Translations under genes and position numbers: made by a program
Shown: positions 37,758-49,580 of the stretch, piece after piece
How positions within the stretch are numbered: the stretch's first letter is position 1
Layout of the letters: each line of letters begins with the position of its first letter
Assembly: GCA_903881315.1 (NCBI GenBank)
Contig: CAIRSR010000082.1
Span: 1 to 49,718 of the forward strand
Reading direction: 5' to 3'
Origin: an uncultured Thiotrichales bacterium
Lineage (GTDB): Bacteria; Pseudomonadota; Gammaproteobacteria; CAIRSR01
DNA length: 49,718 nt
Notes under the pieces: generated by a model
The model's database searches: none
Seen by the model: the letters and a program-made list of their open reading frames with translations, nothing else
Told to the model about the DNA's origin: nothing

Positions 37758-38061
37758 TCAATGGGCAGTCGGCAATGAGATCGCCACGCGCCCTAGCAGC
37801 GTGAGTGTGGCGGCAGACAGTGCAATGGCGAGCCCAACCATCCACTTCAACGCACGGATCAGGTCGTCTACGCGCTGGATTTCTCCCTTCAAGGACGACT
37901 CCAAGCGGAACATGTCACCCTTGGTTGCAACTGGGGATTCCAGCACCTCAGAGAAGGACTCCTTATTGGGCCTCGACTATCGCGGTGGCTTGTTCACGCG
38001 GTAACCCGGCTTTTTCTAATCGCTCGACGAACCTCAGCGTATCGAAGGTAACGGTCGTCAT
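37758..38061 (-). pseudogene. DUF1640 (MCUR1/CCDC90-like) protein, frameshifted
   Basis: The ATG at 38061 follows AGGGGG. The first frame gives MTTVTFDTLRFVERLEKAGL, PREQATAIVEAQ, then a TAA at about 37961. One base on, the second frame gives the expected remainder: KESFSEVLES, TKGDMFRLESSLKGEIQRVD, DLIRALKWMVGLAIALSAAT, TLTLLGR. An extra T between the CAA and AAG codons explains the break. Intact members are small coiled-coil proteins with one C-terminal membrane helix, of uncertain role in bacteria. The leader is shared with the relic at 49209. Confidence 0.85.
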
Positions 38062-38098
38062 GCAGCCCCCTAGTCGAATGACCAATACTACCGCATCC
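38062..38098 (-). promoter_or_regulatory. Leader block shared with the DUF1640 relic at 49209
   Basis: On the minus strand it reads GGATGCGGTAGTATTGGTC, ATTCGACTAG, then GGGGCTGC before the ATG. The same block (GGATGCGGTAGTATT, CATTCGACCAGG) precedes the gene at 49209. TAGTAT may be a -10 box. Conservation of non-coding sequence between copies 11 kb apart suggests duplicated regulation or recent common origin. Confidence 0.6.
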
Positions 38099-38141
38099 AG
38101 CCACGCAGACACACCGCCAGAATAGCGCCTCACGCCGCGAA

Positions 38142-38255
38142 GGTAACCGTTCACTCCCCCTCCGAGCCGAGAGGGAGCCGACAGAGGAAAGACATTGCAT
38201 AACCTGCAACCCCCTCGGAACCTCCCCCCTCTGGGGGGGAAATCTGAACGGTTAC
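38142..38255. repeat. MITE-like repeat family B, copy 3 (divergent)
   Basis: About 114 bp. It starts GGTAACCGTTCACTCCCCC and ends CTGAACGGTTAC, so the terminal inverted repeats are at their best here (GTAACCGTTC / GAACGGTTAC). The inside differs from copies 1 and 2 apart from the C-rich and G-rich tracts. Confidence 0.7.
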
Positions 38256-38313
38256 TCGCAAAGCAGCCTGCTCTCCCGATTACCAGCCTTCTCTCTGTTT
38301 TTGTGAATGACGC

Positions 38314-38345
38314 AAAAAAAAGCCTGCGTAGTTTCTCGCAGGCTT
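38314..38345 (-). terminator. Rho-independent terminator of the glycosyltransferase gene
   Basis: On the minus strand a perfect 9-bp stem, AAGCCTGCG with CGCAGGCTT, and an 8-nt loop are followed by a T-run. It starts about 50 bp past the stop codon at 38396. Confidence 0.9.
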
Positions 38346-38395
38346 GTTGTGTTGGAAGGGTTGACCCAGTAGATTGAACCACCACACCGTCGGCG

Positions 38396-39556
38396 CTATT
38401 CCCCCCCAAGCGCAAGGATCCTCTGCACCAACTGCTGGTGCTGCTCATCCACGGTGCGCTGCCGAACCGTCGCAAATTCATAGGCCGCTTGGCGGCGATT
38501 GGGTGCTTCCGCAAAGGCGTCAGCGAACGCACTGCACCAGGCCTCGGCGTTACCGTAATCCGCGACCGTCCAAGAAGGGTCAGGCACCGTCTCGGGGAGG
38601 CCACCGACCCGACTCACCAACGCGGGCACCCCAAAGCCAAGGGCCTCTAGCGCAACCCGACCATAGGCCTCGGCGACCTGCGAGGGCACCAACATGAGGC
38701 GCAAGCCCTGGTATAGCCGCGCCGGATCGCTCTCCCAGCCCGCAAAGACGACATTACTGGGGAGCGCCGACAAGGCACTCGCCCGGGCATGGACGCGGAA
38801 GGTAATCTCGGGGAAACGCAAGGCCAAGGCACGTAACACATGCCCGCCCTTGTCGGCACCATCGCCGACCATCCCGACCACCGCCCCCGCCTCGGGTAGC
38901 GGCAGAGTAGCCAGCGGGGTACGCGGATAGACGACCAGCGCCTCGCGGCCCGAGAAGGCGCGTAGGCGCTCAGCCATAAAATTCGAGTTTGCGACAACGA
39001 GATTGGCACGCGACAGCGCCCGCTGTACGTCGCGCCGGTACAACGCGACCAGCGGGGCTTGGGCCAATTGATACAGGCCCTTGACGGCGCGGCGGATCCC
39101 TCGCTCGTGGTTACACCACTCCCCCCAATAGCGCACGTCTCGCGCAAAGTAGACCGCCAGCACCGACCGTGGCAAGGCATTCAACAGCGTTGGCCCGACC
39201 AGCGACTGCACCAACGCCAGTCGCCCCCGAAAGTTCGCCGCCGACTCCTGCAACTCGCGCCGCCGCAACACCAACTGGAGCAGCGGCAGCCTGCGCAGGG
39301 TATGCGGCGGGTCGAAGCCGCCATCAGAGACCGACCAAGTCCAACTGGGGCGCACTGTGCGCAACTCGTCGAGAATTGCCGCCAACGAGTGCTCAGCACC
39401 TCCCCAGCGCAAAGCAAAATGCCGCGTCACTACTAAGATGTCGGCATCTTCCGCAGGGGTGCGGAGGGTCGCGTCACGCAGCGTCACCCGTCCGCCCCCT
39501 GCCATACCACCACAAAACACACTGTTTCGTCGCACACCGTAGGCAGAAGCGTTCAT
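38396..39556 (-). CDS. Glycosyltransferase, GT4-like (GT-B fold)
   Basis: 386 residues, no signal peptide. The N-terminal half begins with ILVVTRHFALRWGGAEHSLA, the GGAE loop of GT-B enzymes. The C-terminal half has VVGMVGDGADKGGHVL, a LMLVPSQVAEAYGRVALEAL, GFGVPALVSRVGGLPETVP segment with the E-x7-E-type donor-binding region of GT4. It should transfer a sugar from a nucleotide donor to a glycan or protein at the inner face of the membrane. GGAGG lies 10 bp before this ATG. An ATG at 39505 is an alternative. It is alone, with its own terminator. GDP-fucose or GDP-mannose as donor is possible but unproven. Confidence 0.82.
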   Translation of the reverse strand: MNASAYGVRRNSVFCGGMAGGGRVTLRDATLRTPAEDADILVVTRHFALRWGGAEHSLAAILDELRTVRPSWTWSVSDGGFDPPHTLRRLPLLQLVLRRRELQESAANFRGRLALVQSLVGPTLLNALPRSVLAVYFARDVRYWGEWCNHERGIRRAVKGLYQLAQAPLVALYRRDVQRALSRANLVVANSNFMAERLRAFSGREALVVYPRTPLATLPLPEAGAVVGMVGDGADKGGHVLRALALRFPEITFRVHARASALSALPSNVVFAGWESDPARLYQGLRLMLVPSQVAEAYGRVALEALGFGVPALVSRVGGLPETVPDPSWTVADYGNAEAWCSAFADAFAEAPNRRQAAYEFATVRQRTVDEQHQQLVQRILALGGE

Positions 39557-44778: not shown

Positions 44779-45030
44779 ACGACGGGTGGGGTGTTTTGGC
44801 TTCCCTCTCCATGGGACAACCAACGGAACTAGCACAATAAGTGGCACTGCGCTTGCGCGGCAACCCGCCTCCCCGTCGGTTGATACTCGTGCATAGCCGT
44901 AGTTCATCACGGCATTTTTCACCCGAGTTTTGCACAGGAAAAGTCCTTTGTTTTCAAGGATCGGATGCTTGTGCAGAATTCCTGGATATGCGCGAAGGTT
45001 ACTCCACGAATAAGGGTACTACATAGAAAA
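44779..45030. other. Border of the AT-rich island
   Basis: No gene. Base composition changes near 44930, from G/C-rich chromosome to clearly AT-richer sequence that continues to about 46870. Confidence 0.5.
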
Positions 45031-46737
45031 ATGAGCATTAAATATCTAATATACTTTTTCTCGATTCTATACTTTTCTTCCATACAAGTAAGCATGTCTG
45101 CGTCCGACACATTGGAAGATATTAAACAATCCAAGCAAATTAACATCGGGTACAGAGGCTCATCTATCCCATTATCTTTTATAGATAACACGAGAAGTGA
45201 GCCACTTGGTTATAATATCGACGTATGCCTGTCGATCATAAAGAACATTAAGACCGAATTGAATATCTCCGATCTGAGAGTAAACTTTATAAAAGTTGAT
45301 GGCGCGTCCCGCATCCCAATGCTGACTGACAAGAAAATTGATCTTGAATGCGGTTCCACCACGCATACCCTCGATCGAGACAAGTTTGTATCGTTTTCGG
45401 TCAGTACTATTATTGATGAAGATCAAGCCATCACCAAAAAGAGTCTAGGCATTAAGTCGATAGCCGATTTAAATGGAAAGATGATCGCCGTGAACCCATC
45501 GTCATCTATCACACTTAAGATCCGGGCGATAGAAATTAAGGATGGTTATAAATTTAGCAGGATTTACGTTCCGGATCACAAGGAAGGTTTTGAAATGGTT
45601 CAGAATGATACCGCCGTTGCCTACATTGAATTGAGATCCGTACTGGCCGGGCTCGCATACAAATCAAAGGAACCAGAAAATTACACGTTCTTAGAAGAAC
45701 CTTTCGATGAGCAACCAATTGCAATCATGATGAGAAAGGGGGAGCAAAATCTTAAATCAATCGCCGATCGAACAATCGTCGGTATGGCAAGGAACGGAGA
45801 ACTTGATAAGCTGTACGCTAAATGGTTTTTCTCTGATATCTCTTCACTAGGAGGATCTCTCCATTTAGCTAAGAATACCGCCACTATCCGCCAATACCGT
45901 GACCCAACGGATCAGCCCGCAGCCGAGGAGGGAATTATTATCGGCTCCATATTTAATTTACCGGTCTGGTTATGGGGTGGAGTGCTTGTGTTTTCCTATT
46001 TGTTTTTATCGCTGACCGGACTATATTTCTTCATCAAGATATTTCGGAAATACCCAATAGAGGACAAGCATCAGCTTGAATTCTCCAATATGGGGCTAAG
46101 CGCGGTAGGCGGGATGACATCACTGATATTTGGTTTTACCCTGGTCGTCACCCTAACCGCTTACAACACCGCAGCGAATCTCGTGATAGAAGAGGCAAAC
46201 TCCATTGGGGTAATGCAGAAGAATTCTGTTGGCATTGATGCCGCAGATAAAGAAAGAATTAAGCAGGCGCTTACAAAATATACTAAAATCGTCATTGACC
46301 GTGAATGGCAAGATCAAAGAGAAGGTTTACCAGTATTTAGCTTCTCAGGAAATGCGGCGATCAATGATTTGCATCAGATAATCTTAAACCTGGATACGAC
46401 AGACAAAAAAACCGCGACCATTGCCCAATCCGCACTTCTGCAAGGAATAAACGCTATTTATAAAGCGAGAATGAATCGATTATTCGCGGCAACGCCAAAG
46501 TCAAAGATTCCTTTGATTCTTTGGATCATGCTTTTCACGAGTTCAGTAGTTACCATTACTTGCTCATTTCTAATAGGATATAGAAACAGGCTACTGCATT
46601 ACGTGACAGTATCTATTATTTCTCTTACGCTTTCTCTGTTTCTGGTTCTTATTCTCTATATCGATAGACCCTACATTGGAAATAAGGGCGTATCTTCCGA
46701 ACCCTACCAAATTACTCTCGAGAATTTCGTGCTCTGA
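45031..46737 (+). CDS. Solute-binding domain fused to DUF4239 (bestrophin-like) membrane domain
   Basis: 568 residues from the ATG at 45031, which gives a good signal peptide (MSIKYLIYFFSILYFSSIQV, SMSA); an ATG 22 codons earlier lacks one. Residues ~25-290 form a type 3 solute-binding domain: KQINIGYRGSSIPLSFID, GYNIDVCLSIIKNI, DLECGSTTHTLDRDKFVSFS, GELDKLYAKWF. From 310 there are four membrane helices (about 310-338, 356-383, 493-518, 523-548). EEANSIG at 387-393 and the terminal YIDRPYIG are DUF4239 signatures; DUF4239 has been likened to bestrophin anion channels. The binding domain should face the periplasm. AT-rich codon use unlike its neighbours suggests transfer. Confidence 0.8.
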   Translation: MSIKYLIYFFSILYFSSIQVSMSASDTLEDIKQSKQINIGYRGSSIPLSFIDNTRSEPLGYNIDVCLSIIKNIKTELNISDLRVNFIKVDGASRIPMLTDKKIDLECGSTTHTLDRDKFVSFSVSTIIDEDQAITKKSLGIKSIADLNGKMIAVNPSSSITLKIRAIEIKDGYKFSRIYVPDHKEGFEMVQNDTAVAYIELRSVLAGLAYKSKEPENYTFLEEPFDEQPIAIMMRKGEQNLKSIADRTIVGMARNGELDKLYAKWFFSDISSLGGSLHLAKNTATIRQYRDPTDQPAAEEGIIIGSIFNLPVWLWGGVLVFSYLFLSLTGLYFFIKIFRKYPIEDKHQLEFSNMGLSAVGGMTSLIFGFTLVVTLTAYNTAANLVIEEANSIGVMQKNSVGIDAADKERIKQALTKYTKIVIDREWQDQREGLPVFSFSGNAAINDLHQIILNLDTTDKKTATIAQSALLQGINAIYKARMNRLFAATPKSKIPLILWIMLFTSSVVTITCSFLIGYRNRLLHYVTVSIISLTLSLFLVLILYIDRPYIGNKGVSSEPYQITLENFVL

Positions 46738-47131: not shown

Positions 47132-48667
47132 TCATTTTTGGGGTTCTTTCCCAAACTTGAAGGCGTTAGCGATACCTTGCAAAGCCTCTTTCACTACCGA
47201 CCCCCATGGCGCGGACGCCTCCGTTTGCATGGTCGCAAAGGCATTACCTCTGGATACATTCCATTCAAATGCCTTTTCCAGTTCATCAATGCTCACCTTA
47301 CCCTCATTTAGGTGGATGAAAAGCCGCCCCTGCCGCAAAGAGTGGCGACGCTCCTTCAAACGCTCGAGCTGATCCATCATTACCTTGGTGTGTCTCCAGC
47401 AACTAACCGACACCAGCACAAGAAAGCCATAGAAAGTAAATGCTGCCACGAACTTAGAAACAATTCCTGGCCAATCTGAGTTATTTAGTTGAATAAAGCA
47501 CACGATCCCCGCGAGACACTCCGACAACTTATCTGGTGAGGGGGGTGGGGGGGGAGAGGGGAGTGGAAAGAACTGTGAAAGGACGTGTGGAAAATAAAGA
47601 TAGTAGCCGATAAAGGCCGAAACTAAGACTCCAATAACTAACGGAAGAAAACTAAGCTTTGTCAGGCTCTTACCCCAGGACTTATAATCTTCATAGTCTT
47701 TTTCAAGATAGATTATTGCCTTCTCAACAAACAAGTCCGTAGTTGCAAGCCTGTATGCTAGTGAATTGTGATCCTGATCGGGTTTATTTACGCAGCAACA
47801 TTCTAACGATTTACCGTCATCCTTGGCTTTCTTTATTATATAAGTACTTCCAGGCGCACCTAACTCAATATTTGACGCGGACTGTGCGCCCTTACCATTT
47901 AGTTCACGATGAAAAAGATACTGTTTCTCCAGGTGTTCCATTCTAGATAATATCGCATACCGGAGCATCAGTCGCTCATACACAGCCACAGAAACATCAT
48001 TGTTTTCTGATGTTTCTCTCCTCTTTGGAGATATGAATAGAATAGGTGCTAATATCCTTTCAACATAGGAGAGGAGAAAGGATCCTACTCCTCCTTTAAT
48101 CCCTGAACATCCAAGAGCTATTTTCGCCCTCTTTATGTGCCCAACCACTTCATTAAAGTGTGCTTCTGTTTTTTCAGCAAATGCCGCGAAATCAGAATGT
48201 TTTCCAACCATCAGATTCATATTATTGAAAGCGGCCTTCGCTTCCCATATGTTCTGGCTAACTTCCGCAAGGCCTTTTGTTATTTCTCTAGCAAAGCCTA
48301 CGAAATGAGGAGTTGGATGAGGTCGCAAAGTCTGATTGTCGAGTTCAGTTTCCGCATCCTGCACGAGCGTATCCACTTCGTTAAAGCTCGTCTCTGTCTC
48401 ACTAAAAAATTTAGTGAAATCAGAATATTTTCCGCTCGTCAAGTTCTGATTATTGAAAACCTCTTTCACCTCCTGTATGCGCCTAACCACTGCATTAAAG
48501 TACACACCTGTTTCGCTAACAATCCCCTTGAAATCAAGGTAATTAGCGCTCGTCAGATTCGGATGACCGAGAATCGCTATCACATCCTTCATGCGATCCT
48601 TCACTTCCTTAAAGGATTCTTTTGTTTTTCGAGAAAATTCTTCGAAATCAACTTTATTCTCACTCAT
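47132..48667 (-). CDS. Membrane protein with five N-terminal helical repeats, unknown function
   Basis: 511 residues; the start is the second ATG after a GGAAGGGGGGG run. Residues ~7-195 hold five repeats of about 38 residues. Each has the form D-F-x-x-F-x-x-x-T-x-x-x-F-N-E-V, a charged helix, then N-x-N-L-x-x-x-K-x-S. The middle is helical and polar, with CCCVN near 295. Two membrane helices follow (about 336-357 and 401-424), separated by an outward or inward loop with FFPLPSPPPPPSPDK. The last ~85 residues are soluble and helical. I recognise no family. It converges on the solute-binding/DUF4239 gene and is also AT-richer than the chromosome around it. Confidence 0.65.
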   Translation of the reverse strand: MSENKVDFEEFSRKTKESFKEVKDRMKDVIAILGHPNLTSANYLDFKGIVSETGVYFNAVVRRIQEVKEVFNNQNLTSGKYSDFTKFFSETETSFNEVDTLVQDAETELDNQTLRPHPTPHFVGFAREITKGLAEVSQNIWEAKAAFNNMNLMVGKHSDFAAFAEKTEAHFNEVVGHIKRAKIALGCSGIKGGVGSFLLSYVERILAPILFISPKRRETSENNDVSVAVYERLMLRYAILSRMEHLEKQYLFHRELNGKGAQSASNIELGAPGSTYIIKKAKDDGKSLECCCVNKPDQDHNSLAYRLATTDLFVEKAIIYLEKDYEDYKSWGKSLTKLSFLPLVIGVLVSAFIGYYLYFPHVLSQFFPLPSPPPPPSPDKLSECLAGIVCFIQLNNSDWPGIVSKFVAAFTFYGFLVLVSVSCWRHTKVMMDQLERLKERRHSLRQGRLFIHLNEGKVSIDELEKAFEWNVSRGNAFATMQTEASAPWGSVVKEALQGIANAFKFGKEPQK

Positions 48668-49208
48668 CATCCCCCCCTTCCGCCTTGTCAAGGACAACCC
48701 ATTCAGCCTAACAACTACGCACCCCTTATTCGGTGGCTATTGCGTCAGGCATGAACAACCCGTTCTGAACCACATACCGCTTTGGCGAGAAGGGTCTTTG
48801 TCTGCCCTGTCAACGCGCAACGACCCCTCTCGGGAACCAAAAGGGTAGCTAACCCATTTCTTTACACAGAACCAGGGTAGCTGTACGGTTTCGTTGCACT
48901 GTACTACACACCTACCACCCTCTGTCAATCAGTTATCTACTGTTGTTAGCAATATATTCCCCACTCTCGGCGACACGCGCCCACGCCCGGGACAACACAA
49001 CGACCACCCATGAGGGCACGCTGGAGAAAACACCGGACTACAACCGGATGATGCCGAGGGGCCGACCGAGAAGGCGCTCGCCCCCCTCCTCGACTCCGAG
49101 GCGCAACGGAGGAAAACGCACCCTCTTAAGAAAGGGGACAGCCACCAGACCATGGTGCTTCATCACCAGCGGATGCGGTAGTATTCGCCATTCGACCAGG
49201 AGACCACG
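48668..49208. other. Intergenic region, no gene seen
   Basis: 541 bases. The octamer GGGTAGCT occurs twice (48843 and 48879) and may belong to an insertion-sequence end, but no transposase is visible. The right part, 49171-49197, is the leader block shared with the DUF1640 relic at 38061. Short open frames lack support. Confidence 0.4.
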
Positions 49209-49440
49209 ATGAGCGCAGTCACCTTTGATACGCTGAAGTTCTCTCAACAAGGCCGCCGGAGTTACCATACAGTGGGCTAACGCAGTGGCCGACGCCTTCC
49301 AACAAACAGGGGCATTACCGGTCAACCGGGACTATCTTGACGTCCGTCTGCTGGGGATGGAGAACCGCTTGATGAAATGGGGGATTGATCTCGCTCTGGG
49401 ACAGATCACCTTACTCACGGCGATCATCAAATTGCTTTGA
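49209..49440 (+). pseudogene. DUF1640-like gene, frameshifted
   Basis: The ATG at 49209 gives MSAVTFDTLKFSQQ and then leaves frame. The expected continuation is in another frame: KAAGVTIQWANAVADAFQQT, GALPVNRDYLDVRLLGMENR, LMKWGIDLALGQITLLTAII, KLL and a TGA at 49438-49440. A small deletion or insertion near 49240 explains it. The form is that of a short DUF1640-type protein with a C-terminal membrane helix. Its stop overlaps the next start as TGATG, so the pair was once translationally coupled. Confidence 0.75.
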
Positions 49441-49580
49441 TGAGGGGAACACGCATCACCACCGCCCCCTTCGATACCCTCGCCTACGTCAAAACCCTGC
49501 GTGGTGCTGGCTTTACCGAGCCCCAGGCGGAGGCGCAGGCCAGTGCGCTAGCCACTGTGCTGAAGTCAGGCACCGACTGA
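49440..49580 (+). CDS. Short DUF1640 N-terminal domain protein
   Basis: 46 residues: MRGTRITTAPFDTLAYVKTL, RGAGFTEPQAEAQASALATV, LKSGTD. The FDTLAYVKTLRGAGFTEPQA segment is the conserved DUF1640 N-terminus. The coiled coil and membrane helix that should follow are missing, so it is truncated by a stop at 49578-49580. It may be a fragment or a small protein partnering the upstream gene, whose stop it overlaps. Confidence 0.6.
   Translation: MRGTRITTAPFDTLAYVKTLRGAGFTEPQAEAQASALATVLKSGTD

Follow-up and report, generated by a model that had tools for sequence, protein, structure and literature searches.

The window analysed here is the whole stretch of 49,718 nucleotides, near the end of which a single gene on the forward strand (45031..46737, 568 aa plus stop) codes for a solute-binding protein (SBP) domain fused to a bestrophin-like membrane domain. 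An alternative in-frame ATG upstream at 44965 would give a 590-aa product. Both domains proposed for this protein in the earlier note scored above their Pfam cut-offs, SBP_bac_3 at residues 37-266 (59-288 in the 590-aa numbering; E 2e-22, 79.8 bits against a cut-off of 26.4) and PF14023, formerly DUF4239 and described as "Bestrophin-like", at residues 353-559 (375-581 in the 590-aa numbering; E 6.5e-36, 124.5 bits against a cut-off of 32), that is, inside the tract 310-568 where it had been placed. Pfam matches to NMT1 and OCD_Mu_crystall were weak, below cut-off, and were discarded. The signal peptide and four membrane helices that had been read from the letters also agree with the hydropathy of the 568-aa protein, which has an N-terminal hydrophobic segment at residues 6-24 and four later ones at 317-335, 355-373, 493-511 and 526-544, and the two motifs that had been taken as DUF4239 marks, EEANSIG and DRPYIG, are present. 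What we find is a complete GltI-type SBP joined end to end to a complete DUF4239 domain by a flexible linker of ca. 17 residues (residues 300-316, 45928..45978; pLDDT <50 over 300-317).

The gene is contained in an AT-rich stretch running from ca. 44.8 to 48.7 kb, and its two halves are closely alike in composition, with a GC content of 41.7% in the SBP half and 41.0% in the membrane half (64% in the upstream gene) and a GC3 of 46 and 44%, respectively (71% in the upstream gene). The SBP half keeps the C-terminal tail of its family up to "DPTDQP", aligned with "EPND" of relatives, and the membrane half starts at the native DUF4239 N-terminal motif (F/Y-N/D-LPxWL), FNLPVWLWG here compared with YDLPNWLVG in stand-alone proteins. 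Because both halves share this unusual composition and are joined cleanly in frame, within a single open frame, an assembly or annotation artefact that misjoined two unrelated genes seems to us very improbable. It would have required a gene end without its stop and a gene start in frame with it and of matched composition, and a random in-frame misjoin rarely brings a native SBP tail up to a native DUF4239 N-terminal motif; what speaks for it is that the fusion comes from a single genome in 221 contigs, with no second example found. The same solitary occurrence, together with a composition unlike that of the neighbourhood, would also fit a fusion that arose by chance or is decaying, whose halves have no function in common and which drifts in an AT-rich stretch gained by horizontal transfer. 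However, the frame is unbroken over 568 codons, neither domain has lost its motifs and the SBP retains its pocket arginines, and we regard this explanation as very improbable.

Other reading frames close to the fusion gene were also inspected. The AT-rich ORF at 47132-48697 on the reverse strand (521 aa) contains a helical unit repeated imperfectly some four times (e.g., "NLTSANYLDFKGIVSETGVYFNAVVRRIQEVKEVF") and, further on, two TM helices, with no Pfam family above cut-off. Short or frame-broken pieces at 49200-49580 (forward strand) and 37963-38604 (reverse strand) have a common start, "TVTFDTLRFVERL / SAVTFDTLKFSQQ / TAPFDTLAYVKTL", and resemble decayed members of a single small protein family flanking the region.

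A second SBP-DUF4239 fusion was found neither in the order of the source genome (4 genomes) nor in samples of its class (369 genomes), its phylum (399 genomes, searched with PF14023 and with the full protein) and the Alphaproteobacteria (289 genomes), samples that overlap and amount to ca. 1,000 genomes altogether. None was detected either in 72,556 plasmids, in 50,697 phage records or in viral contigs. Scanning 84,980 species genomes twice also gave no fusion; both scans relied on short conserved peptides and have little sensitivity for a domain that has diverged so far, its closest DUF4239 relatives being only ca. 22-30% identical. PF14023 itself is widespread, with matches in 49 of the 399 genomes of the phylum sample, and the source genome codes for one such protein, the fusion. 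The DUF4239 proteins that we inspected share with the fusion the full domain, four TM helices, the E-A motif, DxPFxG and the N-terminal LPxWL. Unlike it, they stand alone, mostly with ca. 250-330 aa, and none carries an SBP, nor was an SBP gene found within ca. 1.5 kb of DUF4239 among roughly 90 genes inspected. Several candidates had to be rejected. The long frames around DUF4239 in five genomes (G491, G605, G650, G670, and G460) and around an SBP match in another (G312) were reading-frame noise or unrelated upstream sequence, a plasmid match (H18) that seemed to be an SBP with a membrane extension turned out to be an SBP with an ABC permease encoded separately behind it, and frames of 560-640 aa in the MAG family f215 were SBP-ABC permease fusions. 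In the literature searched DUF4239 is nearly absent, with incidental mentions only and no experiment or pore activity found for any member, and the pairing with an SBP appears to be undescribed there, in keeping with the earlier note, which knew of no described protein with this pair.

The SBP half begins with a signal-peptide-like hydrophobic segment (residues 1-24, 45031..45102) that has low pLDDT and ends where the mature domain of relatives starts. The GltI-type domain follows (residues 25-298, 45103..45924) with its native C-terminal tail. The nearest protein of solved structure is Shigella DEBP/GltI (PDB 2ia4; E 1.9e-40), and the model of residues 25-298, which is confident (block pLDDT mostly ca. 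80-97), superposes on it with a TM of 0.92. Among NCBIfam models the glutamate/aspartate binding protein subfamily came closest (E 9e-45), although its 153 bits fall short of the cut-off of 375; the other NCBIfam models near this half were further amino-acid SBPs. By alignment with GltI (PDB 2ia4, 2vha), the conserved pocket residues R24, R75, S90, T92, and R97 correspond to R42, R94, S109, T111, and R116 of the fusion (45154..45378), T140 corresponds to S159 and H164 to H183, so that the three pocket arginines and the histidine are kept, and R75 and R97 are near-invariant across 46 homologues. Two positions differ: S72 is replaced by G91, and D182, which we take to be the contact for the alpha-amino group of the ligand, by L201 (H183 and L201 lie within 45577..45633). 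An aspartate occupies the latter position in 42 of the 46 homologues. Since the Glu/Asp pocket of GltI is not retained in full, we do not class this domain, as judged from the alignment, as a glutamate binder. Since the conserved Asp182, the presumed amino-group contact, is absent, the ligand would be anionic but need not be an alpha-amino acid, and may instead be some other carboxylate. The earlier assignment to the type 3 amino-acid-binding domains holds for the SBP_bac_3/GltI fold, while the "amino-acid-binding" part may be wrong given the loss of D182. In GltI, S72 and S27 touch the ligand carboxylate, and changes at S72 shift the Glu/Asp preference of GltI sensors (PMC10942590). Another pocket-altered relative was detected in a viral contig (L160 in IMGVR_UViG_2933705211_000004), a GltI-like SBP with Arg at the D182 position and Ala at that of H164.

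GltI works with an ABC permease, whereas the SBP described here is attached to a membrane domain and no cognate permease was found. The contig carries none of the nine BPD_transp_1 and 32 ABC_tran matches of the genome, in line with the earlier remark that no ABC permease or ATPase gene is nearby, and the HEQRo polar-amino-acid permease family (TIGR01726) has no match in the genome (ca. 94% complete). A cognate HEQRo permease with its ATPase, as expected for an amino-acid ABC transporter, was found neither in the genome nor near the gene. Because the genome lacks a polar-amino-acid permease match and the contig any ABC part, we consider it unlikely that this SBP serves an ABC importer. Along other lines, seven MAGs of family f215 (G401, G422, G441, G445, G455, G469, and G489; loci L137-L143) consistently code for a GltI-type SBP and an ABC-permease-like domain in one chain. 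As in our protein the SBP is N-terminal to a membrane domain, but the latter resembles an ABC permease and is not bestrophin-like. The source genome also codes, on contig C81 of G000, for an SBP-type sensor kinase (L150) in which SBP_bac_3 is followed by one TM helix, by several domains resembling PAS and by the beginning of a histidine kinase.

The membrane half comprises TM1 (residues 317-335, 45979..46035), a continuous helix (346-401, 46066..46233) that includes TM2 (355-373) and ends in the EEANSIG region, a central helical domain (374-492, 46150..46506), TM3 (493-511, 46507..46563), TM4 (526-544, 46606..46662) and a C-terminal tail with DRPYIG (46663..46734). Its AF2 model is of medium confidence (pLDDT 76.8, pTM 0.65, from an alignment of six sequences) and contains a helix of 56 residues that bears TM2. 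When this model was compared with the PDB by Foldseek, the best 50 matches were all to the Klebsiella bestrophin KpBest (probability 1.00, TM 0.40-0.52, E 2e-3 and above). Profile-profile comparison by HHalign, between 61 DUF4239 sequences and 25 bacterial bestrophins, gave 92.8% (E 4e-7) over 193 collinear columns spanning TM2, the vestibule, TM3, TM4 and DxPFxG, and reversed controls gave 0.1-0.5%. We took E. coli YneE as the seed of the bestrophin profile because the search with PF01062 at E 1e-20 in 120 genomes, including the source genome, gave no match anywhere, the controls being equally without match. PF01062 is also not among the Pfam matches of the fusion protein, a search of PDB sequences with the 61-sequence DUF4239 profile retrieved no bestrophin, and a fold search among viral models returned nothing useful; the kinship is seen by profile-profile and fold comparison only. 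As these two approaches agree, they indicate that DUF4239 shares the fold of bestrophins and is kin to them by descent, which backs the "bestrophin-like" label of the earlier note.

By this homology the TM2 helix would line the pore and the central domain would be equivalent to the bestrophin vestibule. The fusion shares with KpBest and YneE the GF of the neck helix, where F70 of YneE pairs with F369, and the C-terminal DPFG, with bestrophin EDPFG pairing with DRPYIG. However, V62 and I66 of YneE pair with G361 and L365, so that instead of the canonical hydrophobic neck (I-I/F-F) the protein would have G361-L365-F369, the F70 equivalent alone being kept. Animal bestrophins have an acidic Ca2+ clasp, and its acidic residues are absent from the C-terminal tail of the fusion. 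The neck of KpBest is formed by I62, I66, and F70, the middle one of which affects ion selectivity (PMC8496536).

Charge counts gave a further difference between the two families. The K+R content per residue of DUF4239 proteins was 0.172 in the TM1-TM2 loop, 0.198 in the TM3-TM4 loop and 0.085 at the N-terminus, compared with 0.103, 0.000, and 0.159 in the same regions of bestrophins, and positive charge was higher on the side of the short loops in 56 of the 61 DUF4239 proteins against 5 of the 25 bestrophins. In bestrophins the vestibule is cytosolic (PMC8496536). A fused SBP must be periplasmic to work, so TM1 is predicted to run from outside to inside. Because charge patterns and a periplasmic SBP both point the same way, we predict that DUF4239 is inserted upside down relative to bestrophins, with the vestibule in the periplasm and facing the SBP. 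This orientation and the bestrophin descent go beyond the earlier note. The fusion would act in this sense as a natural topology reporter and a functional hint for the DUF4239 family: the vestibule side would lie in the periplasm, and one member at least appears to be coupled to a receptor for small molecules.

There are several possible explanations for such an arrangement. We tentatively favor, at somewhat below even chances and in line with the ligand-opened pore suggested in the earlier note, a homo-oligomeric pore with the mouth of its vestibule facing the tethered SBPs and its conduction regulated by their closure on the ligand. The signal peptide would send the protein across the inner membrane, leaving the SBP in the periplasm, TM1 would lead back inward, and the vestibule would lie in the periplasm beneath the SBP. 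The chains would assemble as in KpBest, into a ring that is probably pentameric and has TM2 lining its pore. A small anionic ligand would then induce the Venus-flytrap closure of the SBPs, and ion flow would be controlled by the resulting change in how tightly TM1 is pulled or how the vestibule is covered. The Pfam scores of both domains, the fold match to KpBest and a GltI pocket kept except for D182 and S72 are consistent with this proposal, and there are precedents for a periplasmic-binding-protein-like domain outside a pore domain. In bacteria, PBP-I domains occur in fusions with pentameric ligand-gated channels (PMC549065), and ionotropic glutamate receptors are thought to combine an SBP with an inverted K+ channel pore (PMC6385376). 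The pore folds of the PBP-I channels and of the prokaryotic glutamate receptor GluR0 are, however, unrelated to this one, and in GluR0 the pore is inserted within the SBP, whereas here the SBP is simply N-terminal. Against a gated pore, the neck is G-L-F and not I-I-F, the linker is predicted to be disordered, so that the SBPs could pull only loosely on the pore unless they are seated against the vestibule, the membrane model is of medium confidence, and the fusion is known from one genome only.

The main rival, in our opinion unlikely, is that the tethered SBP hands a scarce anionic nutrient to the bestrophin-like channel, which would act as a single-chain permease without ATP. SBPs of the GltI-type family normally feed transporters, the close relatives in f215 are examples of tethered SBPs in transport, and the predicted opening of the vestibule is on the SBP side. 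On the other hand, no energy coupling is visible, as the contig lacks an ABC ATPase and bestrophins are passive channels, and the pocket has lost a residue that nearly all relatives conserve. Still less probable is a membrane sensor that does not conduct, in which the bestrophin fold would be a scaffold relaying ligand binding to a partner. SBP_bac_3 is common in sensors, as in the SBP-PAS kinase of the same genome, but a DUF4239 domain in this orientation would expose to the cytoplasm only two short loops, with little to signal with, and no evident partner gene adjoins.

The SBP-regulated pore can be extended to a broader picture, possible although doubtful, in which DUF4239 would form, within the inner membrane of bacteria, a large bestrophin-superfamily branch inserted upside down, with this gene as an SBP-gated member, an independent coupling of SBP and pore parallel to that of ionotropic glutamate receptors. 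If true, bestrophins would have an inverted sister family and SBP-gated receptors a new type of pore. DUF4239 proteins can also be numerous within single genomes, since four genomes of genus g287 (G502, G553, G641, and G731; 1.7-2.1 Mb) code for two to four of them each, which is many for their size.
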